From positions 310,001 through 374,000 of the forward strand of contig NZ_JAUTAJ010000004.1 in assembly GCF_030818485.1 (NCBI RefSeq): a stretch of DNA of 64,000 nt. The letters run 5' to 3'. How positions within the stretch are numbered: position 1 is the stretch's first letter; each line of letters starts with the position of its first letter. The DNA is from Pseudoroseomonas cervicalis (GTDB lineage Bacteria; Pseudomonadota; Alphaproteobacteria; Acetobacterales; Acetobacteraceae). The notes under the pieces were generated by a model. It had not been told where the DNA came from, did not search any database, and saw nothing but the letters and a program-made list of their open reading frames with translations. The translations under genes and the position numbers were made by a program. Of the stretch, positions 7,359 through 47,611 are shown in pieces.

Positions 7359-7751
7359 ATGAACCGCGACCCTCAACCGCATCTGCCGCGCCCCTCCGAG
7401 GCCGCGGCGGCGCTCGGCGTCTTCCTGGGCCAGGCGGTGCTGCCGGCGCTCAGCCTGGCCGTCGCCTGGCTGGCGCTCTTCGCCGAGCCGGCGCCGATCG
7501 CGGCCATCCTGGCGGTGGCGGCGATCTCGGTCGGGCTGTCGCTGAAGCTGCTCTACCGGCGCGGCCGGCCCTGGCCGCTGCCGGCCCTGCCGCTGCTGGC
7601 GCTCTGCGCCATCCTGGGCCGGCTGGCGCTGGGCCGGCCGGGCCTCGGGGAGATGGTGTTCCTGACGGCGCTGCTGGCGCTGTCGCTGGGCAGCGCGGCG
7701 CTGGCGCGCTCGCCGGCGCTGGAGCGTTTCCTCCGGCGCGGCCATCGCTGA
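7359..7751 (+). CDS. Small multi-pass membrane protein of unknown function
   Basis: The 130-residue product has about four hydrophobic segments (FLGQAVLPALSLAVAWLALFA, IAAILAVAAISVGLSLKLL, LPALPLLALCAILGRLAL, MVFLTALLALSLGSAAL) separated by short Arg-rich loops, consistent with an inner-membrane protein. I do not recognise a family. It is followed by a perfect 10-bp stem at 7777-7800 before the convergent metC-like gene. An antisense frame covers the same bases but gives a Gln/Arg-rich shadow. Confidence 0.6.
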   Translation: MNRDPQPHLPRPSEAAAALGVFLGQAVLPALSLAVAWLALFAEPAPIAAILAVAAISVGLSLKLLYRRGRPWPLPALPLLALCAILGRLALGRPGLGEMVFLTALLALSLGSAALARSPALERFLRRGHR

Positions 7752-7776
7752 GAAGGCGGGGAGAACAGGCAGGGCA

Positions 7777-7800
7777 GGGCGGCGGGACAGCCCGCCGCCC
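7777..7800. terminator. Hairpin between convergent genes
   Basis: GGGCGGCGGG and CCCGCCGCCC form a perfect 10-bp stem with a four-base loop, between the stop codons of the membrane-protein gene and the cystathionine beta-lyase gene. There is no T run, so termination is inferred from position and stem strength. Confidence 0.4.
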
Positions 7801-7807
7801 GCCCGCC

Positions 7808-9040
7808 TCAGCGCGGCAGGCTGTCCAGCCCGGCCTCCAGATCGGCGATCAGGTCGGCCGCATCCTCCAGCCCGATATGGAAGCGCACCGTCGGCCCCTG
7901 CAGCGCGCCGGCATCGGTCGCGGTGCGGGAGATGTAGTTGGTGGTGGGCAGCGCCAGGCTCTCATAGCCGCCCCAGGAGGCGCCGATGCCGAACAGCTTC
8001 AGCCCATCCACCACCGCGTCGATCTGCTGCGTGCTGTAGCGGGGCTGGAACACCACGCCGAACAGCGAGGCGCCGCCGGTGAAGTCGCGCTTGAACAGCG
8101 CGTGCTGCGGGTGGCTGGGCAGGGCCGGGTGGATGACGCGCAGCACCTCGGGCCGGCCCTCGAACCAGCGGGCGACGGCCAGGCCGGCCTCATACTGGTG
8201 CTTCAGCCGCATCGGCATGGTGCGCAGCCCGCGCAGCGCCAGCCAGCAATCATCCGGGCTGGCGTAATGGCCGATCTCGCGCGCTGCACCCGCGATGATG
8301 CGCCAATCCTCCTCGGTCGCCACCGTCACGCTGCCCAGCAGCACGTCGGAATGGCCACCGACATATTTGGTCAGCGCCTGGATCGAGACATCGACGCCCT
8401 TGGTGAAGGGCTGGAAATGGTGGATGCCCCAGGTGTTGTCCATCAGCACCTTGGCGCCATGCGCATGCGCCACCTCGGCCAGCGCCGGCACGTCCTGCAG
8501 CTCGAAAGTGTGGCTGCCCGGGCTTTCCAGATAGACGACCTTCGTGTTCGGCCGCATCAGCGGGGCGAGGCCGGCGGCGTCGATGGTCGGGTCGTAATAT
8601 TCCGTCTCGATGCCGAAGCGCTTCAGCATGCCATCGGCGATGCGGCGCGTCGGACCATAGACGCTGTCCGGGATCAGGCAGTGGTCGCCGGCCGAGAGAT
8701 AGGCCATCAGCGGCAGGGTGCAGGCGGCGAGGCCCGTGCCGGTGATCAGCGCGCGATGGCCGCCCTCGATCTCGGCGACCATGTTCTCCAGCGCGAAATG
8801 CGTCGGCCCGCCCGCGGTGCCATAGGTCATCACCTGCTCGAACGAGCGGGCATTGATGCTGCCGCGTGCCTCGCAGGAGGGGTAGAGCACCGTCGAGCCG
8901 CGATAGACCGGCGTGTTGACGAAGCCATGCTCGCGCACGCCGGGGCGGCCGCCATGCGACATGCGCGTGGCGAAGCCATGCCCGGAATTGTGGCCGGCGC
9001 TCTGGCCGGGCTTGCGGCCAGGGGGGAGGTGATCGGGCAT
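7808..9040 (-). CDS. metC: Cystathionine beta-lyase (PLP enzyme)
   Basis: A Cys/Met-metabolism PLP enzyme of 410 residues; it should split cystathionine to homocysteine, pyruvate and ammonia. Visible blocks are the phosphate-binding turn ITGTGLAACTLPLMAYL, VVYLESPGSHTFE, and VSIQALTKYVGGHSD, whose Lys forms the internal aldimine. The C-terminal region VRFHIGLEDAADLIADLEAGL is typical. I start at the ATG at 9040, which overlaps the sulfurtransferase stop as TGATG; codons further upstream read into that gene. Pairing with a sulfurtransferase suggests sulfur amino acid breakdown. A related gamma-lyase activity cannot be excluded. Confidence 0.88.
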   Translation of the reverse strand: MPDHLPPGRKPGQSAGHNSGHGFATRMSHGGRPGVREHGFVNTPVYRGSTVLYPSCEARGSINARSFEQVMTYGTAGGPTHFALENMVAEIEGGHRALITGTGLAACTLPLMAYLSAGDHCLIPDSVYGPTRRIADGMLKRFGIETEYYDPTIDAAGLAPLMRPNTKVVYLESPGSHTFELQDVPALAEVAHAHGAKVLMDNTWGIHHFQPFTKGVDVSIQALTKYVGGHSDVLLGSVTVATEEDWRIIAGAAREIGHYASPDDCWLALRGLRTMPMRLKHQYEAGLAVARWFEGRPEVLRVIHPALPSHPQHALFKRDFTGGASLFGVVFQPRYSTQQIDAVVDGLKLFGIGASWGGYESLALPTTNYISRTATDAGALQGPTVRFHIGLEDAADLIADLEAGLDSLPR

Positions 9041-37459: not shown

Positions 37460-38323
37460 TCAGTGGGGGGGCAAGGCCAGCAGATCGGTGTGGCCAATGC
37501 GGACGGAGAGGCGGCCGCGGCGGGCCTGGGCGCGACGCGCCTCGGCCCAGCCGCGCAGCAAGGGCGCGGTGCCGGGGGGCAGGGCAGCGCGGGCCGCCTG
37601 CGCATGGCCCTCGGCCAGCGTGTCCGCCATCACCGGCGTGGCGCCAGGCACGAACCAGGGGCTGGGGGCGGTCTGCACCCGGAAGCCCGCCCCCCGGAAG
37701 GCGCGCGCCATCGCCGCCGGCGCCGCGGGGCCCAGCGCCCTGCCAAACCCCTTGTCGCGCCCCTGGTCGCGGCGGAAACCACGCGCCACCAGCCCATCGG
37801 CCGGATGCGGCGGGCTGAAACGGTCCCGCCCATCGACATTCAGCGCGGCATAGAAGGGCACCCGCAGCGCGCCCGCCATCTGCCGCACCCAGCGATGCGA
37901 GACCAAATCGCACAGCGCCGTGCTGACCACGCCATCCGCCTTGTCCAGCGGCAGGGCGGAGGGTCCGGCGGCGAGGTCGGCCACCAGCCCCTCCACCCGC
38001 CAGACGCCCTGCGGCGTGTGCACCAGCAGCGTGGTCGGGCGCGGCCAGGTGGTGGTCCAGCCGGCCAGGATCGCCCGCTCCTCGATGGTGGCGAAGGCGC
38101 GCTGCAGCAGCGCTGCATCGGCATCCACCAGCGTCCAGAATTGCGACCGCCCCAGGATCGGCGCCAGCCAGCGCAGCAGCGAGCCGGTGCCGGCGCCGAG
38201 ATCCAGCAGATGCGGCCGCGGCGGCAGCGCCTCGGCCAGGGCGATCGCCAGCGACGCGTTGCGGGCGCGGGCGTCGAAGGGCTCGCGCAGCTCCAGCCAA
38301 TCGGCCTCGAAGGGTTCGCTCAT
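37460..38323 (-). CDS. SAM-dependent class I methyltransferase of the five-gene operon
   Basis: A 287-residue methyltransferase whose SAM site is visible as PHLLDLGAGTGSLLRWLAPILG, followed by the acidic motif II region FWTLVDADAALL. The later part (VSTALCDLVSHRWVRQMAGAL, FYAALNVDGRDRFSPPHP) does not match a specific substrate family known to me. Its ATG overlaps the glycosyltransferase stop by 4 bases, and it is the last gene of the RibD/MDR/PTPS/GT/MT run. It should methylate the product of that pathway. Confidence 0.85.
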   Translation of the reverse strand: MSEPFEADWLELREPFDARARNASLAIALAEALPPRPHLLDLGAGTGSLLRWLAPILGRSQFWTLVDADAALLQRAFATIEERAILAGWTTTWPRPTTLLVHTPQGVWRVEGLVADLAAGPSALPLDKADGVVSTALCDLVSHRWVRQMAGALRVPFYAALNVDGRDRFSPPHPADGLVARGFRRDQGRDKGFGRALGPAAPAAMARAFRGAGFRVQTAPSPWFVPGATPVMADTLAEGHAQAARAALPPGTAPLLRGWAEARRAQARRGRLSVRIGHTDLLALPPH

Positions 38324-39369
38324 GCGCTGACCTGCTCCAGCTCGGCGGCGAAGGCGGTGGCGCGGTCCGTCCAGCGCGGCAGGCGCTGCCCGGCCTGCCA
38401 GGCGGCCTCCGCCATGTCGGCGCGCAACCGCGTGTCGAAGATCACCCGCCGCATGGCGCGGGAGAGCGAGGTGACATCCCCCGGCGCCGCCACCACCCCG
38501 GCCTCGCGTGGGACGAGGTCGGCGATGGCGCCGCCGGCGGTGATGGCGACCGGCAGGCCGCGCGCCAGCGCCTCGGCCGCCGCCATGCCATAGCCTTCCC
38601 AATGGGTCGCCAGCGCGAACAGGTCGGCGCGGGCATAGAGCGCCTCCAGCGCCGCCTGCCCGACCTCGCCGGCGAAGCTGACGCGCTGGTCGATCGCCAG
38701 CTCCACGGCCAAAGCGCGCAGCCCCTCGGCATGCACGGGGTCGCGCGGCGCGCCGGCGATGGTCAGCGACCAGTCGAGATCCGGCAGCTTGGCCAGCGCC
38801 CGCATCAGCACGTCATGCCCCTTGCGCGGCACCAGCACGCCGACGGCCAGGATGGCGCAGCCCGGCCCGCCCGAGCCCCGCGCGCGCGGCGCCGGGTCGG
38901 TGCCCGGCTCGACCACGCCGATGCGCGCCGGATCGGCGCCGAACTCGCCCGGCAGCCGGTCGGCGGTGAGGCGGGAGGTGGCGACCAGCCGCGCCAGGCG
39001 TGGGAAGAGCAGCGCCTCGCGCCGCTTCAGCTCGGCGCGCTCCGCCTCGGTGAAGCCGGGCTCGATGGCGGTCGGGTGGTGGATCAGCCCGACGGCGCCG
39101 CGCGCTTCCAGCTCCTCCACGAAAGGCGCGAAGGCGGGCAGGCCGAGCCCGTCGATGATCAGCCGCGTCCCCTGCGGCACCGCATCCAGCGCGGCGCGGG
39201 CCGAGGCCTCGGCCGCGTCATCGGGCAGCGGGTGGCGGCCGGACAGCTCCACCACCTCCACCGCATGCCCGGCTTCGGAGAAACCCTGCACCAGGCGGCG
39301 GTCATAGCCATAGCCGCCGGAGATGGTGGCGAAGGGGCCGGGGACCAGCAGGGCGATGCGCATGCTCAC
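38320..39369 (-). CDS. Family-4 glycosyltransferase of the five-gene operon
   Basis: A 349-residue GT-B glycosyltransferase of the GT4 type. The donor-binding part is AILAVGVLVPRKGHDVLMRAL, and HWEGYGMAAAEALARGLPVAI carries the EX7E motif that retaining GT4 enzymes use. The N-terminus (RIALLVPGPFATISGGYGYDRRLVQGF) is typical. No membrane segment is present. The 4-base overlaps on both sides place it inside a pathway operon, not a polysaccharide cluster, so a small-molecule acceptor such as a pterin is my inference. Confidence 0.88.
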   Translation of the reverse strand: MSMRIALLVPGPFATISGGYGYDRRLVQGFSEAGHAVEVVELSGRHPLPDDAAEASARAALDAVPQGTRLIIDGLGLPAFAPFVEELEARGAVGLIHHPTAIEPGFTEAERAELKRREALLFPRLARLVATSRLTADRLPGEFGADPARIGVVEPGTDPAPRARGSGGPGCAILAVGVLVPRKGHDVLMRALAKLPDLDWSLTIAGAPRDPVHAEGLRALAVELAIDQRVSFAGEVGQAALEALYARADLFALATHWEGYGMAAAEALARGLPVAITAGGAIADLVPREAGVVAAPGDVTSLSRAMRRVIFDTRLRADMAEAAWQAGQRLPRWTDRATAFAAELEQVSA

Positions 39370-39773
39370 GCCGGCTCCGCCTCATAGGCCGCCCAGGCCA
39401 GCGGGCTTTCGCGCAGCAGCACCTTGATGCCGGTGACGGCACCGCCGCCCGCGCCCAGCCGCCCCTCGCGCAGCGCCGCCGAGAGCAGGGCATGGATGTG
39501 CTGGCAGAGGAATTCGGTGCTGGTGTTCTGCCCGGCGAATTGCGGCAGCGTGTCGAGATTGTTGTAGTCGAACCCGTCCAGGATGCGGCGCAGCTCGACC
39601 CGCGCGGCGGCGATGTCGATCAGCAGATTGTCGGGGCCGAGGCGCGGGGCACGGAACTCCGCCTCCACCACGAAGGTGGCGCCGTGCACGCGCTGCGCGG
39701 GCCCGAAGCCCTCGCCGCGGAAGCTGTGCGCGACCATGATGTGGTCGGCGACGGTCAGGCTGAACATCGGCAT
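39366..39773 (-). CDS. PTPS/QueD-like protein lacking the catalytic Cys and one zinc His
   Basis: The 135 residues fit the 6-pyruvoyl-tetrahydropterin synthase fold: FSLTVADHIMVAHSF (first zinc His, H16), GPAQRVHGATFVVEAEF, and YNNLDTLPQFAGQNTSTEFLCQHIHALL, which matches the NPTSEN-type active-site stretch. In QueD the middle motif is CxxxHGH. Here A26 stands where the Cys should be and HGA replaces HGH, so the normal carboxypterin chemistry is unlikely. Similar GPAQ-HGAT forms appear, as I recall, in related bacteria. The ATG at 39773 lies 13 bases after the dehydrogenase gene. It should not be called queD without proof. Confidence 0.82.
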   Translation of the reverse strand: MPMFSLTVADHIMVAHSFRGEGFGPAQRVHGATFVVEAEFRAPRLGPDNLLIDIAAARVELRRILDGFDYNNLDTLPQFAGQNTSTEFLCQHIHALLSAALREGRLGAGGGAVTGIKVLLRESPLAWAAYEAEPA

Positions 39774-39786
39774 CCCTTCGTAAAAG

Positions 39787-40770
39787 TCACGGAGCGTAGG
39801 TGATGACGGGGCAGAGCGGCGCAACCTCTCCCTCGGCCGGCTTGCCGAGCAAAGCGGGCAGCCGCGCCGGCAATTCGGCGAAGGGCAGGGTCGGGCCGCA
39901 CAGCGTGTCGAGCGCCGGATCCGCCAGCAGCGAGAGGGCCAGCGCCATGCGCTGCCCATGGCAGCGGCGCCCGCGCATGCTGCCCGAGACGGCGCCGACC
40001 TGGGTGGAGCGGAGGGTGAGGCGCTTGGCGTGGAAATCCTCGCCCAGCGGCAGGGAAACGGGCGCGTCGCCGAACCAGGAGGCTTCGAGGATGCGCGCCT
40101 CGAAGGCCGCATGGGCCAGGGCATGGCGCAGCCCGTCGCCGCTGGCCGAGGCGTGGATGATCAGCTCCTGCTCGCCCGGGCTGTCCTCGGGCAGGGCGAA
40201 GCGGCAGCCCAGCGCCTCGGCCTGGGCGCGGCGGCGCGGATCGGTGTCCAGCAGCGTCACCTCGGCGCCCGGCAGCCGCGCCAGCAGGAAGCCGGCCAGC
40301 AGCCCGACCACGCCGGCGCCGATCACCAGGATGCGCTCGCCGAGCCGCGGCTCGGCATCCCAGACGATGTTCAGCGCGGTTTCCATATTGGCGCCGAGCA
40401 CGGCGCGATGGTCCGGCACCGCATCCGGCACCGTGGTGCAGAGCGCGGCGGGGGCGATGAAGCGGTCCTGGTGCGGGTGCAGGCAGAAGACGCGCTGGCC
40501 CCGCCACTCCGCCGGACCCTGCTCGACATGGCCGACCGCGGCGTAGCCATATTTCACCGGGAAGGGGAAATCTCCCTCCTGCAGCGGCGCGCGCATCGCC
40601 GCCCATTGGCTTTCCGGCACGCGGCCCTGCAGCACCAGCCGCTCCGTCCCGCGCGAGACGCCGCTGGCCAAGGCGCGCACCAGCAGCTCGCCCTCGGCGG
40701 GCGGGGAGAGGTCTTCCTCGCGGATCTCGCCCTGGCCCGGGGCGGTGGTCCAGAAGGCCCGCGCCCTCAT
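39787..40770 (-). CDS. MDR-superfamily alcohol-dehydrogenase-like protein
   Basis: A 327-residue medium-chain dehydrogenase/reductase relative. The GroES-like part starts at about residue 25 and includes SGVSRGTERLVLQGRVP; the cofactor loop is ILVIGAGVVGLLAGFLLARL, followed by LLDTDPRRRAQAEALG, suggesting NAD use. The Cys-rich structural zinc lobe of classic zinc ADHs is not apparent. It is the second gene of the operon; its ATG overlaps the RibD-like stop by 4 bases. The substrate is unknown but presumably a pathway intermediate. Confidence 0.83.
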   Translation of the reverse strand: MRARAFWTTAPGQGEIREEDLSPPAEGELLVRALASGVSRGTERLVLQGRVPESQWAAMRAPLQEGDFPFPVKYGYAAVGHVEQGPAEWRGQRVFCLHPHQDRFIAPAALCTTVPDAVPDHRAVLGANMETALNIVWDAEPRLGERILVIGAGVVGLLAGFLLARLPGAEVTLLDTDPRRRAQAEALGCRFALPEDSPGEQELIIHASASGDGLRHALAHAAFEARILEASWFGDAPVSLPLGEDFHAKRLTLRSTQVGAVSGSMRGRRCHGQRMALALSLLADPALDTLCGPTLPFAELPARLPALLGKPAEGEVAPLCPVITYAP

Positions 40771-41609
40771 GCGGCGCAGACCGCCGGGCGGGCGCGGTGC
40801 AGGGCGATGTCGAACAGCACATCCTCGCCCAGACGGTGCACGCCCCAGGCGAAGCGCAGCCCATCGGCGATGCGCGCCGCCTCGGGCAAAGTGAAGGCGG
40901 GGATGCCGCTGCCCAGCAGCACCGGCGCCACGGTGACATGCAGCCGGTCCAGGCAGCCGGCGGCGAGGAAGCGGGAGACGGTGAGGCCGCCGCCCTCGAC
41001 AAAGATGCGCCGGAGCCCGCGCGCGGCCAGCATCGGCAGCAGGGCCGGCAGGTCGATGCCGCCGATCGCGGCGCGGGGCGCGCGCAGCAGCTCCGCCGCG
41101 CCGTGCCGGTCGCGCGGCAGGCCGCGCTCCGGCGCGTCCTCGGCGCAGACCAGCAGCGTCGGCGGGCCGCCCGCGGCGAAGACGCGATATTCGGTGCCAA
41201 GCGTCCGGCTGGTGTCGATGACCACCCGCACCGGGTTGGGGCCGGGGCAGTCGCGCGTGGTCAGGCGCGGATCGTCATGCTTCACCGTGCCGGCGCCGAC
41301 CAGCACGGCATCGCAGAGCGCGCGCAGCCGGTGGGTGTGCAGCAGGTCGCCGGGGCCGCCGATCCACTGGCTGGAGCCGCCGGCGGTGGCGATGCGGCCA
41401 TCCAGCGTCTGCGCCAGCCGGCCCAGCACCAGGCAGCCATCCTGCGCCTGCGCGCTGGCCAGGATGGGGGCGAAGAGTTCGGTGAGCGGGCCGGGCGGCA
41501 ATGCCGCGAGGTCGCCGCCCTGCCGCGCGCGCAGCAGCGCCTGCCAGGCGGGGCTGTCGGCCGCGCATTCTTCCGGGGGCTGCGGCGGGGTCGGGGCGGT
41601 GGCGTGCAT
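40767..41609 (-). CDS. RibD C-terminal-type reductase, first gene of the operon
   Basis: The 280-residue product is a RibD_C/DHFR-like reductase without the deaminase domain. LVLGRLAQTLDGRIATAGGSSQWIGGPGDLLHTHRLRALCDAVLVGAGTV and the IFVEGGGLTVSRFLAAGCLDRLHVTVAPVLLGSG stretch are diagnostic. In riboflavin synthesis such domains reduce the ribosyl side chain of a pyrimidine; free-standing copies serve other pterin or pyrimidine pathways. An N-terminal tail of about 60 residues is not part of the fold. Four genes follow with overlaps or a 13-base gap. About 280 bases with no gene precede the repeats at 41889. Confidence 0.86.
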   Translation of the reverse strand: MHATAPTPPQPPEECAADSPAWQALLRARQGGDLAALPPGPLTELFAPILASAQAQDGCLVLGRLAQTLDGRIATAGGSSQWIGGPGDLLHTHRLRALCDAVLVGAGTVKHDDPRLTTRDCPGPNPVRVVIDTSRTLGTEYRVFAAGGPPTLLVCAEDAPERGLPRDRHGAAELLRAPRAAIGGIDLPALLPMLAARGLRRIFVEGGGLTVSRFLAAGCLDRLHVTVAPVLLGSGIPAFTLPEAARIADGLRFAWGVHRLGEDVLFDIALHRARPAVCAA

Positions 41610-41969: not shown

Positions 41970-42542
41970 TCAGGCGGGGAGGATGCCGCGGCGGGCGTCG
42001 GCGCGGCGCAGCCAGGCGGTCAGCGGCAGGGCCAGCAGCACCATCCACAGCTTGCCCATCACCTGGCCGGGCAGGTAGCCGAGATCGCCGAAGGCGATGG
42101 CCAGGAAGAACACGCTGTCCACCACCAGCCCGACCAGGCCGGAGGCGAGCACCGCCAGCACCAGGTTGCGCCGCTGCAGCGGGGTATAGACCAGGAGGTC
42201 GGCGGTCTCGCTGAGCAGGAAGGCGGTGGCCGAGGCCAGCACCAGCGCCGGCGGCGCCAGCAGGGCGGAGAGCGCGGTGCCCGCCACGATCGCGGCCCAG
42301 GCGAAGCGCAGGCCGAGGCGGCGCTGCACGAAGTCGCGCAGCACCAGGGCCAGGCCGATCATCAGCACGCCGGAGGGCGCCATGATGCCCGGGGCGACCG
42401 GGATGAGGCAGGGCCCGTTCGGCACGCAGACCGTGCCGGCATGGCCGATCAGCCAGTTCGCCGCGGGAATGGTGAGGCCGAAGGCGATGAGGGCCAGGAA
42501 GCCCTCCCACCGGCGTGGGTCGGTCATCTGCGAGTTTTCCAT
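41970..42542 (-). CDS. YhhQ/VUT-family queuosine precursor transporter
   Basis: A 190-residue membrane protein with five or six helices: FLALIAFGLTIPAANWLIGHAG, GVLMIGLALVLRDFVQRRLG, LSALLAPPALVLASATAFLLSETADLLVY, LVLAVLASGLVGLVVDSVFFL. The block LLSETADLLVYTPL matches YhhQ (queuosine precursor transporter). YhhQ imports preQ0 or preQ1; next to queC and the rest of the que set, this role is well supported. An alternative start at 42527 would remove five residues. The stop is followed by a repeat pair. Confidence 0.85.
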   Translation of the reverse strand: MENSQMTDPRRWEGFLALIAFGLTIPAANWLIGHAGTVCVPNGPCLIPVAPGIMAPSGVLMIGLALVLRDFVQRRLGLRFAWAAIVAGTALSALLAPPALVLASATAFLLSETADLLVYTPLQRRNLVLAVLASGLVGLVVDSVFFLAIAFGDLGYLPGQVMGKLWMVLLALPLTAWLRRADARRGILPA

Positions 42543-42577
42543 TGCTGGGCGGGAGCATCCGCGCCGACGAAAAGCCG

Positions 42578-43324
42578 TCAGCGGCGCGACTGGTACTCCG
42601 CCCAGCCCCTGGCGCGCAACTCGCAAGCCGGGCACGCAGCGCAGCCATGCCCCCAGGGGTGCAATGCGCCGCGCTCGCCGCGGTAGCAGGTATGGGTCTT
42701 CTCGACGATGTCGCAGACCAGGCGCTGGCCGCCCAGCCGCTCGGCCAGCGCCCAGGTCTCGCCCTTGTCCAGCCACATCAGCGGGGTGTGCAGGATGAAG
42801 CGGCGCTCCATGCCGAGGTTCAGCGCCAGCTGCAGCGCCTTGATGGTGTCGTCGCGGCAATCGGGGTAGCCGGAGAAATCCGTCTCGCACATGCCGCCGA
42901 CGATGTGGCGCAGCCCGCGCCGGTAGGCGAGCGCGGCGGCGAAGGTCAGGAACAGCAGGTTGCGGCCGGGGACGAAGGTGTTGGGCAGCCCGTCCGCCTG
43001 CATGGCGATCTCGGTCTCGCGGGTCAGCGCGGTGTCCGACAGCTCGCCCAGCGCGTCGAGCCGCAGCGTGTGGTCAGGGCCGAGCCGCGCCTGCCAATCC
43101 TCCGGCAGGCCGCTGCGGAAGCCCTCGCGGCATTCCAGCTCGATCCGGTGGCGCTGGCCGTAATCGAAGCCCAGCGTCTCCACCCGCGCGAAGCGGGTCA
43201 GCGCCCAGGCCAGGCAGGTGGCGGAATCCTGCCCGCCGCTGAACAGCACCAGCGCGCCATCCTCCACCGTATGGCGGCCGAGCAGCCCGTCCGGGGTGAT
43301 CTGGGATGTGGTGCCGTCCTGCAT
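42578..43324 (-). CDS. queC: 7-cyano-7-deazaguanine (preQ0) synthase
   Basis: QueC turns 7-carboxy-7-deazaguanine into preQ0 using ATP and ammonia. The 248 residues have the PP-loop [19 protein letters not shown] at about residues 25-43 and a C-terminal zinc site, [24 protein letters not shown], with four Cys. [16 protein letters not shown] is also typical. The ATG at 43324 begins [13 protein letters not shown]. The gene lies 59 bases before hyp-43384 and 35 bases ahead of the transporter gene on the same strand. Confidence 0.95.
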
Positions 43325-43383
43325 GCGCCTGCCTCCTGCTGCGCCGGGCTTGCGGCGCGGCGGGCGGCGCGTCAAGCGCGACG

Positions 43384-43698
43384 TCAGAACAGGCCGAGAA
43401 TGCCGCGCCCCGCGCGCTCCGCCTTCACCAGCAGCGTCGCCTGCTCGGCGGCATAGGTGCGGCGGGCGGTCAGGCCGGGCAGGCCGATGCCCTTGCGGTC
43501 GCACCAGGGGAAGAATTCCTGCGGCCGCACCGCGATGCGGATGACGCGATAGCCTTCACCCACCGCGCGCTGCAGATCCTTCTTCGCGCCGAGCAGCCAA
43601 TCCTCATAGGATTCGCTCATATCCGGCATCCGGGCACGCAGGGCCTCGAAGGAATCCCTGTCATACCAGGCGAAGCCCATCACGCGGTCATCCTTCAT
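43384..43698 (-). CDS. Small conserved-looking protein between queG and queC
   Basis: I do not recognise this 104-residue protein. It is soluble, with an N-terminal segment [36 protein letters not shown], then a beta-like [22 protein letters not shown], and a C-terminal helix. It lies on the same strand as the que genes, 49 bases after queG and 59 before queC, so it is probably part of that transcript. No motif links it to queuosine chemistry. Confidence 0.7.
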
Positions 43699-43747
43699 CC
43701 CACCCTCCTGGCAAGCCCGCCGCAGGGTAGGCGCAAGATCTCAAAGA

Positions 43748-44842
43748 TTAGGTTGACGGCGCCGCGGCGGAGAGCCGCGCCCGCGCCCAGCGGGCGGCCT
43801 CCGCCACGATCTCCGACGGGTCGGCGGCCAGCCGCTCGGCCACCGGGCGCAGCGCCGGCTCGGCCGAATTGCCGATGGCGATCAGCACATTGCGCAGGAA
43901 GCGGTCGCGCCCGATGCGCTTGATGGGCGAGCCGGAGAACAGCGCGCGGAAGCCGGAATCGTCCAGCGCGGCCAGCTCGGCCAGGCGAGGCGCGGTCAGG
44001 TCCTCGCGCGGGATCAGCCCGGGCTCGCGCGCCGCCTGGGCGAATTTGTTCCAGGGGCAGGCGGCCAGGCAGTCGTCGCAGCCATAGATGCGGTTGCCGA
44101 TGGCGGCGCGGAATTCCTCCGGGATCGGGCCCTTGTGCTCGATCGTCAGGTAGGAAATGCAGCGCCGCGCATCCAGCCGGTAGGGGGCGGGGAAGGCCGC
44201 CGTCGGGCAGGCGGAGAGGCAGCGCGTGCAGCCGCCGCAATGATCCTGCCCGGCGCCAGAGGGCGCCAGGTCCAGCGTGGTGTAGACCTCGCCCAGGAAC
44301 AGCCAGGAGCCGTGGCTGCGCGAGACCAGATTGGTGTGCTTGCCCTGCCAGCCGAGCCCCGCCTGCTGCGCCAGCGGCTTCTCCGCCACCGGGGCGGTGT
44401 CGACGAAGACCTTCAGCTCGCTGCCGCGCCAGCGCTCCACCATCCAGCGGGCCAGCGCCTTCAGCCGCTTCTTGACGATGTCGTGGTAGTCCCTGTGCCG
44501 GGCATAGACGCTGATGGCGCCCACGTCGCGCTGCGCCTGGAGCGCGCGCGGGTCGTGATCCGGCCCGTAATTCATGCCCAGCGCGATGACGGAGACCGCC
44601 TCGGGCCACAGCGCCTGCGGATGGGCGCGCTGTCCGGCCCGGTCGGCCAGCCAGCCCATCTCGCCCTGCATGCCGGCAGCCAGGAAGGCATCCAGCCGCG
44701 CCCGCACCTCCGGCCCCAGCCGCGCCGGGGCAAAGCCCACCGCATCGAAGCCCAGGCGGAGGGCTTCGTCCCGGATGGCGGCGGCGCGGGCTTCAGGGGT
44801 GTCTATGTTCAGTTCCTTCTTTTTCTGAAGAAAAAGAAGCAA
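43748..44842 (-). CDS. queG: Epoxyqueuosine reductase QueG
   Basis: QueG reduces epoxyqueuosine in tRNA to queuosine with cobalamin and two 4Fe-4S clusters. [18 protein letters not shown] and [16 protein letters not shown] are the two cluster motifs; [13 protein letters not shown] is in the N-terminal part, and a HEAT-like repeat is at the end. The only standard start, TTG at 44842, gives a first ten residues ([10 protein letters not shown]) coded by a palindromic intergenic element, which is suspicious. The best-spaced AAGGAA sits before an ATA codon at 44806, from which the protein would read [15 protein letters not shown] if ATA initiates or is really ATG. Confidence 0.93.
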
Positions 44843-44932
44843 AAAGACTTTTTGCCAGGCTGCCGCCGTCTCCCGGTGAAGCGGGACGCCAAACTGACAA
44901 AAGTTTTTTGGTTCTTTTTTCCAAAAAAGAAC
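44816..44932. repeat. Palindromic intergenic element, copy A (117 bp)
   Basis: The left end CTTCTTTTTC-TGAA-GAAAAAGAAG and the right end GTTCTTTTTT-CC-AAAAAAGAAC are perfect hairpins. A short CAAAAA-GAC-TTTTTG hairpin follows the left end, and the core (44857-44890) resembles the 35-bp GC-rich repeat unit. Read backwards it matches copy B at 52922-53040, including 34 identical bases at one end and 28 at the other. It lies between queF and queG and reaches into the queG start. Confidence 0.85.
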
Positions 44933-44940
44933 AAATACCT

Positions 44941-45408
44941 TCAGCCACGCCCCTTATAGGGCGGCACCCCTTGCTCCGGGATCCAGACCCCCTCCGGCGC
45001 CGCCCCCGTCTGCCAGAACACGTCGATCGGGATGCCGCCGCGCGGGTACCAGTAGCCGCCAATGCGCAGCCAGACGGGGGCGAGCGTCTCGGCCAGGCGC
45101 AGGCCGATGCCCACCGTGCAGGCCTCGTGGAAGGCGCCATGGTTGCGGAAGCTGGTCAGGAACAGCTTCAGGCTCTTGCTCTCCACCAGCCAGTCGCCGG
45201 GGATGTAGTCGATCACCAGATGCGCGAAATCCGGCTGGCCGGTCAGCGGGCAGAGGGAGGTGAATTCCGGCGCCACGAAGCGCACCGTGTAGCGCTGGCC
45301 GGGATGCGGGTTGGGCACGCGCTCCAGCACCGCCTCCTCGGGCGATTGCGGCTGGGCGACGGCCTGGCCCAGCATGGTCAGGCCGGAGACGTCGTGAGAG
45401 GTGGTCAT
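44941..45408 (-). CDS. queF: NADPH-dependent preQ0 reductase (preQ1 synthase)
   Basis: QueF reduces the nitrile of preQ0 to the amine of preQ1. The 155-residue unimodular form has the catalytic Cys53 in [13 protein letters not shown] and the family motif [20 protein letters not shown] (E(S/L)K(S/A)hK(L/Y)...). Length is that of the short, YkvM-like QueF. Its ATG overlaps the tgt stop by 4 bases. The stop lies 8 bases before the palindromic element, whose hairpins could reduce read-through to queG. Confidence 0.95.
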
Positions 45409-46532
45409 GCGGTGGTTTCCTCGGCCTGCGGCGCCCAGCCGGCCTCGATGGCGGCGGCTTCCTGCTCGAAGCGACCATCGAGGATGGCCTGGCGCAGGCG
45501 CTGCATCAGGCGCTGGTAGTAGCGGATATTGTGCCAGGAGAGCAGGATCGGCCCCAGCATCTCATCCGCCTTGAACAGATGGTGCAGATAGCCCCGGCTG
45601 TGCCTTGTGCAAGCGGGGCAGTCGCATTCCGGGTCGAGCGGCGAGGTGTCCTCGGCATGCCGGGCATTGCGGATGTTCAGCACGCCGCGGCTGGTATAAG
45701 CGCGCCCCGTGCGGCCCGAACGCGTTGGCATCACGCAATCGAACATGTCGACGCCGCGCCGCACCGCCCCGATCAAATCCGATGGCGTTCCGACGCCCAT
45801 CAGGTAGCGTGGATGCGTCTCCGGCAGCATCGGCACGCAGAAATCGAGGACGCGGAACATTTCTTCCTGTCCTTCGCCGACCGCCAGGCCGCCAATGGCG
45901 TAGCCCTCGAAGCCGATCTCGCGCAGGGCCTTGGCGCTCTCGGCGCGGAGATCCTCATAGACGCTGCCCTGCTGGATGCCGAACAGCCCATAGCCCGGCC
46001 GCTCGACAAAAGCGGCGCGGGAGCGCGCGGCCCAGGCCATGGACAGCCGCATGGATTGCGCCGCCACCTCATGCGTGGCCGGGAAGGGTGTGCATTCGTC
46101 GAAGCACATGGTGATGTCGGCATCCAGCAGGTGCTGGATCTCGATGCTGCGCTCCGGCGTCAGGCGGAATTTCTGGCCGTTGATGTGGCTCTGGAAGGTG
46201 ACGCCGTCCTTGTCCAGCTTGCGCAGCTGCGACAGGGACATGACCTGGAAGCCGCCGGAATCGGTCAGGATCGGCCCGTGCCAGTCCATCATCTCGTGCA
46301 GGCCGCCGAGTTTGGCGACCCGCTCGGCGCCCGGGCGCAGCATCAGGTGATAGGTGTTGCCGAGCACGATCTGCGCGCCGGTGGCGCGCACGGCGTCCGC
46401 CGTCATGCCCTTCACCGTGCCGGCGGTGCCGACCGGCATGAAGACCGGGGTGGCCACATCGCCATGCGCGGTGTGCAGCGTGCCGGCACGGGCCTTCCCG
46501 TCCTGGCACTGGCAGCTCCAGGAGAGTGTCAT
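45405..46532 (-). CDS. tgt: tRNA-guanine transglycosylase
   Basis: Tgt swaps guanine-34 of GUN anticodons for preQ1. The 375 residues include [47 protein letters not shown] (catalytic Asp and substrate loop), [11 protein letters not shown], and the zinc site [17 protein letters not shown]. The ATG at 46532 gives [19 protein letters not shown], which fits the family start. It overlaps queA by 4 bases upstream and queF by 4 downstream, so queA-tgt-queF are translationally coupled. Confidence 0.96.
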
Positions 46533-47611
46533 GGGGTCGGGTCCTCCCGGAACAGCAGGCTGGCATCGCCATAGGAGTAGAAGCGGTAGCCCTGCGCCAC
46601 CGCATGGGCATAGGCGTCGCGCATGCGCGCCTGCCCGGCGAAGGCCGAGACCAGCATGAACAGGCTGGATTTCGGCAGGTGGAAATTGGTCAGCAGCAGA
46701 TCGGCCGAGCGGAAGACATGGCCGGGCAGCAGGAAGATATCTGTGAGTCCGCGGAAGGGGTGGACGACACCGTCCGTGTCCACCGCGCTCTCCAGCAGCC
46801 GCAGCGCCGTGGTGCCGATGGCGATGATGCGCCCGCCCTTGGCCCGCGTCTCGTTGATGGCCGCCGCCGCCGCCTCGGAGATATGGCCCCACTCGGCATG
46901 CAGCTTGTGCTCGCGCGGGTTGTCGCCGCGGATCGGCAGAAAGGTGCCGGCGCCGACATGCAGCGTCAGGGAGACCTGGCCAACGCCACGCTCCGCCAGG
47001 GCTGCCAGCAATCCGGGCGTGAAATGCAGGCTGGCGGTGGGGGCGGCGACCGCCCCGGGCTCGCGCGCGAAGATCGGCTGGTAATCCTCACGATCCTCGG
47101 GCCGGGGGCCGTCGGGCCGCGCGATATAGGGCGGCAGCGGGATCTCCCCGGCCTTTTCCAGCGCGGCGGCCAGCTTCCCCTGGTCGGGGCCGAAATCGAT
47201 CAGCGCCGCGCCGCCTTCCTGCCGCTCCACCACCCGCGGGGCGAGTTCCGGCGCGCCCTCGATCGTCAGGATATCGCCAGGGCGCAGCTTCTTCGCGTTG
47301 CGCACCAGGGCGTGCCACATCCCGCCGCTCTCGGCGCGGTTCAGCATGATCTCCAGCCGCGCCTCGCCGCGCCGGGCGCGCAGGCGGGCGGGGATGACGC
47401 GGGTGTCGTTCACCACCATCAGATCGCCGGGGCGCAGCCAGGCGGGCAGGTCGCGCACGCCCTGGTCGCGCAGCCCGTCGTGGGCTGCCACCAGCAGGCG
47501 GGCGGCGTCGCGCGGCCGGGCGGGGGCCTGGGCGATCAGCGCCTCGGGCAGGGCGAAGTCGAAATCCTCGGCCCGGAGCTCGGGCAGGGCGGGGGGTGTG
47601 GTGCTGGTCAT
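46529..47611 (-). CDS. queA: S-adenosylmethionine:tRNA ribosyltransferase-isomerase
   Basis: QueA transfers and isomerises the ribosyl part of SAM onto preQ1 in tRNA, giving epoxyqueuosine. The 360-residue protein starts with [31 protein letters not shown] and contains [36 protein letters not shown] and [19 protein letters not shown], all QueA signatures. It is the first gene of the minus-strand que run. The 170 bases upstream toward the divergent TPP-enzyme gene hold no recognisable riboswitch. Confidence 0.96.

Follow-up and report, generated by a model that had tools for sequence, protein, structure and literature searches.

A conserved five-gene operon with a PTPS-IV protein in Pseudoroseomonas cervicalis, possibly the core of a pathway branching off the early riboflavin route

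The PTPS-IV subfamily of COG0720 was named in papers of 2016 and 2017, the relevant sections of which give no reaction for it (PMC5041015, PMC5445326). FGPAQ is given as its signature in PMC5445326, and section 19 of that paper reports PF00925 and PF01872 as neighbors of a cluster of 561 PTPS-IV sequences and assigns the cluster no reaction; the paper labels PF00925 as GTP cyclohydrolase I, the Pfam name being GTP cyclohydrolase II. PMC5041015 ties PTPS-IV to F420 synthesis in a passage that refers to unpublished data. Here, an operon of five genes, one of them encoding a PTPS-IV protein, is described from a 64,000-nucleotide stretch of Pseudoroseomonas cervicalis DNA (contig NZ_JAUTAJ010000004.1, positions 310,001 to 374,000; hereafter the window). 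The operon is real and conserved, and we put at roughly one half the probability that a small-molecule pathway branching off the early riboflavin route has its core here. This fuller conserved set, comprising RibD_C, MDR, PTPS-IV, GT4 and methyltransferase proteins with GTP cyclohydrolase II (GCHII) and creatininase, makes the PTPS-IV question testable: it suggests where the pathway probably starts, what its first steps probably are, and which types of decoration to expect.

The early riboflavin route of archaea and bacteria is described, in the sections used here, as proceeding through GCHII or ArfA, ArfB or BrbF, and ArfC (PMC9478397). GCHII, creatininase-family, and RibD_C proteins recur at the loci studied here, but the operon differs in that it continues with MDR, PTPS-IV, GT4, and methyltransferase genes and has no deaminase domain. 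In cyanobacterial pterin glycosides a glycosyltransferase acts on the pterin, and the toxoflavin pathway combines GCHII with a RibD-type protein and a methyltransferase; to our knowledge, each uses another gene set. For PTPS-IV itself, the published accounts share with the present locus the FGPAQ signature and the PF00925 and PF01872 neighbors and differ in that their relevant sections do not name the set of MDR, GT4, and methyltransferase (PMC5041015, PMC5445326). No description of the five-gene set was found in the open-licence literature, subscription papers lying outside the search.

Five intact minus-strand open reading frames fill positions 37460-41609 of the window, listed here from first gene to last:

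40767-41609, minus strand: RibD_C protein, first gene of the operon (280 aa; Pfam RibD_C, 4.9e-42)
39787-40770, minus strand: MDR-type dehydrogenase, zinc-less by sequence, with weak BchC-like similarity (327 aa)
39366-39773, minus strand: PTPS-IV-type protein (135 aa; FGPAQ...HGAT; Pfam PTPS, 1.9e-19)
38320-39369, minus strand: GT4 family glycosyltransferase (349 aa; GTG start; Glycos_transf_1, 2.2e-28)
37460-38323, minus strand: class I S-adenosylmethionine (SAM)-dependent methyltransferase, last gene of the operon (287 aa; Methyltransf_25, 1.5e-4, a weak match)

All five overlap or nearly abut, as an initial annotation of this DNA had stated. Its three 4-base overlaps and one 13-base gap, between the MDR and PTPS genes, were also right; the overlaps themselves read ATGA, GTGA, and ATGA, and not ATGA three times.

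The PTPS member carries FGPAQ at residues 23-27, which places it in PTPS-IV. Among 73 aligned relatives, the F, G, and A of this signature occur in 73/73 and the P and Q in 72/73, and residues H16, A26, H30, A32, D53, E87, and E122 are invariant in all 73. When residues are equated through the published CxxxHGH motif, the catalytic Cys (A26 instead) and the third zinc His (HGA; A32) are lost in every relative. The annotation had read A26 and HGA correctly, and the conclusion it drew, that the protein is without the residues for QueD chemistry, holds. Neither the CxxxxxHGH nor the ExxHGH motif is present, and assignment to PTPS-II or PTPS-III was rejected. Of the two published neighbor families, PF01872 is adjacent in the window, and PF00925 lies near it in 25 of 59 relatives from other families and is unlinked here. 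The protein has one PDB match at E <= 0.01, the structure 3d7j of SCO6650 from Streptomyces coelicolor (E 1.1e-40; FGPAQRLHGATF), which belongs to the same PTPS group and is named an uncharacterized protein. Its authors reportedly found no zinc and no catalytic triad, yet a pterin-like pocket. The operon had been put forward as a candidate novel pathway; this is not supported as worded, since the PTPS group was already recorded as PTPS-IV with a solved homolog, and PF00925 and PF01872 beside PTPS-IV were already in print, in section 19 of the paper cited above.

The window genome holds a single PTPS. Across the genus, one PTPS was found in 11/17 genomes and two in 6/17, and a PF01242 search of 22 PTPS-IV genomes gave a sole match in nine. 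A motif scan of nine second PTPS loci found CxxxHGH in three, ExxHGH in one, and neither in five, and is partly informative on a coexisting QueD. The PTPS copy in one further locus (L002) is 100% identical to the window protein.

RibD_C is the sole Pfam family matched by the first gene, whose product has no deaminase domain by Pfam. Its best PDB matches, 6p8c (1.2e-29) and 2azn (1.9e-22), are reductases of the early riboflavin route, with bacterial RibD entries next, and it falls below the cut-off of both NCBIfam equivalogs, TIGR01508 and TIGR00326. With no deaminase domain and a diaminopyrimidinone-phosphate reductase as its nearest PDB relative, it is a putative ArfC-type pyrimidine reductase, predicted to act on the ribosylaminopyrimidinone phosphate. 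The MDR protein gave weak dehydrogenase-type matches in Pfam, and its top NCBIfam match was TIGR01202 (bchC, 1.9e-13); with a score of 50.2 bits, where 291 is the cut-off, identity as BchC was rejected. Its AlphaFold2 model (mean pLDDT 93.7) has an MDR fold, and the folds nearest to the model include, among others, rspB and threonine, L-idonate 5-, and sorbitol dehydrogenases. Residues 39-43, SRGTE, are invariant in 31 sequences and stand at what we take to be the position of the first Cys ligand in zinc MDR enzymes.

The GT4 protein scores best in NCBIfam with EpsE (exopolysaccharide) and second with MshA, both far under cut-off, and matches 6kih (9.3e-16), 3c4q and 3c48 (1.2e-12), and 7qsg, a D-inositol 3-phosphate glycosyltransferase (2.6e-11), in the PDB. 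For the methyltransferase, an AlphaFold2 model with mean pLDDT 96.0 gave 719 Foldseek matches at E <= 0.001, and VIA-align together with Foldseek pointed to a general methyltransferase fold and nothing more specific. In its glycine-rich motif I, D41, L42, G43, and G45 are invariant in 30 sequences, and the model and motif together support a class I SAM-dependent methyltransferase.

A lack of joint conservation elsewhere had been named as one of the results that would refute the proposal; it did not appear, and the genes do travel together. In the best 80 of 89 Acetobacteraceae-type loci found, all five occur in the same order and on the same strand in 71, and the remaining nine lack one to three genes, some of them sitting at contig ends. 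The flanks of these 80 loci hold QueC in 14, Vut in 14, and a downstream OtnK-type kinase in 50; four flanking genes, these three included, had no match in 40 + 20 other-family stretches. With the PTPS protein as query, 45 of 385 alphaproteobacterial genomes matched at E <= 1e-8 with the window genome counted, or 44 of 384 besides it, and across the phylum 31 of 398 matched, 27 of them at E <= 1e-27, again counting the window genome. Four weak phylum matches (E 3e-10 to 5e-9) were not counted as PTPS-IV; the one inspected, in G412 (L207), has no cluster.

The other-family sample comprises 59 neighborhoods, 40 of the 44 class matches (G074, G156, G281, and G339 left out) and 19 of 23 further phylum matches at E <= 1e-27 (G523, G673, G749, and G759 left out), scored for 13 gene families. 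All five genes are present in 41/59. By the order of scored genes, the MDR stands just before PTPS in 57, GT4 comes next in 52, and the methyltransferase follows GT4 in 47. Controls were 40 stretches of 18 kb at hand-chosen round coordinates, one each in 40 of the 59 genomes. RibD_C was found at 49/59 cluster loci vs 0/40 controls, MDR at 58/59 vs 1/40, GT4 at 57/59 vs 2/40, and methyltransferase at 51/59 vs 0/40, with hidden Markov models that were built from cluster and plasmid loci and so favor those over controls, and with loci that are not independent of one another, both of which make the associated p-values too small. GT4 and methyltransferase form one protein in 5/59 relatives (L190, L191, L192, L194, and L195; 645-654 aa in those listed), where an LPG_synthase_TM gene comes next in order. 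Over 49 loci, pairwise distances are correlated among the five proteins (r 0.70-0.86; 0/500 permutations as high for each of the 10 pairs), a correlated divergence that shared host ancestry also yields.

Of 20 plasmid matches, 14 were examined (H7, H10, H12, H15, H17, and H18 left out), and these hold the five genes in eight cases, part of the set in three, and PTPS alone in three, all Streptomyces. Complete sets occur on plasmids of Thiodictyon, Microbacterium, Methylosinus (pOB3b1 of M. trichosporium OB3b), Agrobacterium, S. globisporus, Peteryoungia, Rhizobium sp. SSA_523, and Palleronia, so that the set reaches a gammaproteobacterium (Thiodictyon) as well as Streptomyces and Microbacterium. 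The plasmids with PTPS-IV alone (L224, L229, and L230) are linear, those of L229 and L230 have alike neighbors (YbaB/EbfC, discoidin, cupin, and MBL-fold), and they perhaps represent a separate use of the protein. An Acetobacteraceae-like copy with 70% identity lies on a contig labelled Solirubrobacterales (L069), possibly through a binning error.

Further genes recur beside the cluster, their families identified by Pfam on representatives. GCHII was found near 26/59 loci vs 0/40 controls, or 25 when L150, a degenerate RibBA-type domain, is left out of the count. Creatininase was found near 13/59 vs 1/40 and a CDP-alcohol phosphatidyltransferase near 22/59 vs 0/40, and MdoH-like GT2 (17/59), FkbM (11/59), LPG_synthase_TM (9/59), cytochrome b561 (13/59), and YceI (12/59) were each absent from the 40 controls. 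A response regulator was rejected as a linked gene (10/59 vs 6/40, no enrichment).

Among 32 clustered GCHII copies the zinc Cys motif is present in 31, and the switch residue is Tyr in 29, Met in two, both from Streptomyces (L223 and L231), and another residue in the degenerate L150 copy. The Met-type GCHII of S. coelicolor reportedly releases a formylated product. The idea that creatininase is limited to Met-type GCHII was refuted, as the gene lies near both Met-type copies and also at nine Tyr-type loci. Clustered GCHII occurs in 20 genomes, and of 10 in which unlinked copies were inspected, seven have a second intact GCHII, because of which the clustered copy looks dedicated in those genomes. 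In the portion of the study used here, BrbF, a creatininase-family protein of Sinorhizobium meliloti, deformylates AFRPP to DARoPP (PMC9478397).

From the gene content, conservation, lost residues, and folds, we infer a series of reactions, their order, and a product. GCHII would open GTP to 2,5-diamino-6-ribosylamino-4(3H)-pyrimidinone 5'-phosphate, a start proposed because GCHII recurs beside the cluster, and a creatininase-family formamidase may strip the formyl group where GCHII leaves it on. The RibD_C protein would reduce the ribosyl to a ribityl group, and, with no deaminase domain encoded in the operon, the ring would retain the 2-amino-4-oxo (pterin-type) pattern. The zinc-less MDR would then oxidize or isomerize the polyol side chain; by analogy with GTP cyclohydrolase I chemistry, a keto group formed by oxidation of the ribityl could condense with the 5-amino group into a dihydropterin ring. 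Ring closure at the 2' carbon would only recreate the product of GTP cyclohydrolase I, and closure at another carbon or some other use of the MDR is as likely. PTPS-IV, probably metal-free, retains as E122 the Glu by which PTPS enzymes hold pterins; it would bind the compound and reshape its side chain or close the second ring. GT4 would add a sugar and the methyltransferase a methyl group, and in many relatives lipid attachment and transport of the product may follow, through the CDP-alcohol phosphatidyltransferase and a flippase-like membrane protein.

Counted in favor of this pathway are the conserved gene order, the correlated divergence, the recurrence of GCHII and creatininase, the reductases nearest to RibD_C in the PDB, the missing deaminase domain, E122 in 73/73 relatives, the closeness of the MDR model to polyol and other alcohol dehydrogenases, and the GT4-methyltransferase fusion. 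The link to a GTP-derived, riboflavin-type precursor that the initial annotation had suggested is thereby strengthened, both by the recurrent GCHII and creatininase and by the diaminopyrimidinone-phosphate reductase nearest to RibD_C, and its pterin or pyrimidine glycoside would be the product. In three genomes of 1.4-1.6 Mb, of which two belong to one genus, creatininase, MDR, PTPS, GT4, methyltransferase, RibD_C, and GCHII stand side by side, and the survival of the set in them makes a dispensable secondary metabolite an improbable product. A doubtful extension of the pathway would make the product a new and widespread lipid-linked cofactor. In it, a pterin- or diaminopyrimidine-type base derived from a riboflavin precursor would be glycosylated and methylated, coupled to lipid by the CDP-alcohol phosphatidyltransferase, flipped across the membrane, and used in membrane redox with cytochrome b561 and YceI, and the window genome would encode the soluble core of five genes.

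Several observations weigh against a branch off the riboflavin route, in addition to the model bias and non-independence of loci already stated. Three Streptomyces plasmids carry PTPS-IV with none of the other genes nearby, and at L158 an oppositely oriented MDR is the sole set gene beside it. In the 59 loci the methyltransferase went undetected in eight, RibD_C in 10, and GCHII in 33, some through contig ends or divergence. The window genome has three GCHII-type matches, four RibD_C matches at three places, and one creatininase. Its GCHII (C4:3194631) and creatininase (C4:2459829) are both unlinked to the operon; the former probably serves riboflavin too, since it is the only one of the three copies with the Cys motif, and the latter is 27-37% identical to the clustered creatininases. 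One query, run with no positive control, found no relative of the CDP-alcohol phosphatidyltransferase in this genome. Two clustered creatininases tested score best with MftE, under its cut-off, and two more distant BrbF homologs failed to complement, according to the portion of the study used here (PMC9478397), so that function is not uniform within the creatininase family and a formamidase role for the clustered members is tentative.

The leading alternative, though unlikely, is a pterin glycoside from the GTP cyclohydrolase I side, in which the substrate would be a dihydroneopterin phosphate, RibD_C would reduce a dihydropterin, PTPS-IV would edit the side chain, and GT4 and the methyltransferase would decorate it. 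The DHFR-like fold of RibD_C proteins is in keeping with such a role, as are the conserved Glu of PTPS and the presence of GT4 and methyltransferase in 57 and 51 of the 59 loci. Characterized PTPS enzymes, in the sections of the literature used here, act on dihydroneopterin triphosphate (PMC5041015). The recurrent cyclohydrolase is nevertheless GCHII (PF00925), FolE not having been searched for, and the best matches of RibD_C are reductases of the riboflavin route.

It is unlikely that the genes instead build a membrane glycolipid or surface glycan, with CDP-alcohol phosphatidyltransferase, LPG_synthase_TM, MdoH-like GT2, FkbM, GT4, and methyltransferase as its assembly enzymes, RibD_C and MDR making a polyol head group, and no free pterin as product. 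The four membrane-linked families recur beside the cluster (22, 17, 11, and 9 of 59 for CDP-alcohol phosphatidyltransferase, MdoH-like, FkbM, and LPG_synthase_TM; 0/40 controls each), and EpsE and MshA lead the NCBIfam matches of GT4, though far under cut-off. Each of these families was, however, seen at fewer than half of the loci, the search of the window genome for the phosphatidyltransferase came back empty, and GCHII indicates a GTP-derived base.

A spare riboflavin supply, in which RibD_C, and in other genomes GCHII too, serves riboflavin while GT4 and methyltransferase hitchhike, is improbable. The RibD reductase region of the window genome is split over two frames and the unlinked GCHII is its only copy with the Cys motif, which favors this reading; against it, MDR, PTPS, and GT4 are associated across families, classes, and phyla and diverge together, and a rib operon is present elsewhere in the genome, near C4:1.678 Mb. 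By Pfam, none of the five operon genes encodes a deaminase, RibB, RibE, or RibH, and the operon is not a riboflavin operon.

A deazaflavin link, with PTPS-IV serving an F420-type cofactor, is highly improbable. F420 also begins from a ribityl pyrimidine, and in S. fungicidicus the second gene after the clustered ribA is annotated as a PPOX-class F420-dependent oxidoreductase (L223, 16423-16869). The statement on F420 in PMC5041015, made without published data, points the same way, but F420 synthesis genes were not recognized by eye among the recurrent neighbors, with no F420 family search run. A QueD role of the PTPS-like protein in the host queuosine pathway is very unlikely and was rejected. 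The protein is the sole PTPS of the genome, and the 5.3 kb upstream contain Vut, QueC, QueG, QueF, and Tgt, but CxxxHGH is missing in 73/73 relatives, QueC stands beside the operon in 14/80 loci, and TIGR04508, the one QueE partner model run, has no match in the genome, whose assembly is 95% complete.

Of 14 control genomes, TIGR04508 matched eight, one of them above cut-off. The genes upstream of the operon, for a Vut_1 transporter, QueC, QueG, QueF, and Tgt, occupy 41970-46892 on the minus strand and probably represent queuosine precursor salvage, with QueC retained. The rib operon near C4:1.678 Mb contains RibD pieces, RibB, and, by eye, riboflavin and lumazine synthases. In its RibD reductase region (L216, about 7560-8750; C4 near 1679600-1680800), the RibD_C match falls in two pieces in different frames, which may be a genuine interruption or an artifact of assembly. 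In the RibBA protein of the same operon (L209, 1474-2601, minus strand), the GCHII-like half lacks the zinc Cys motif.

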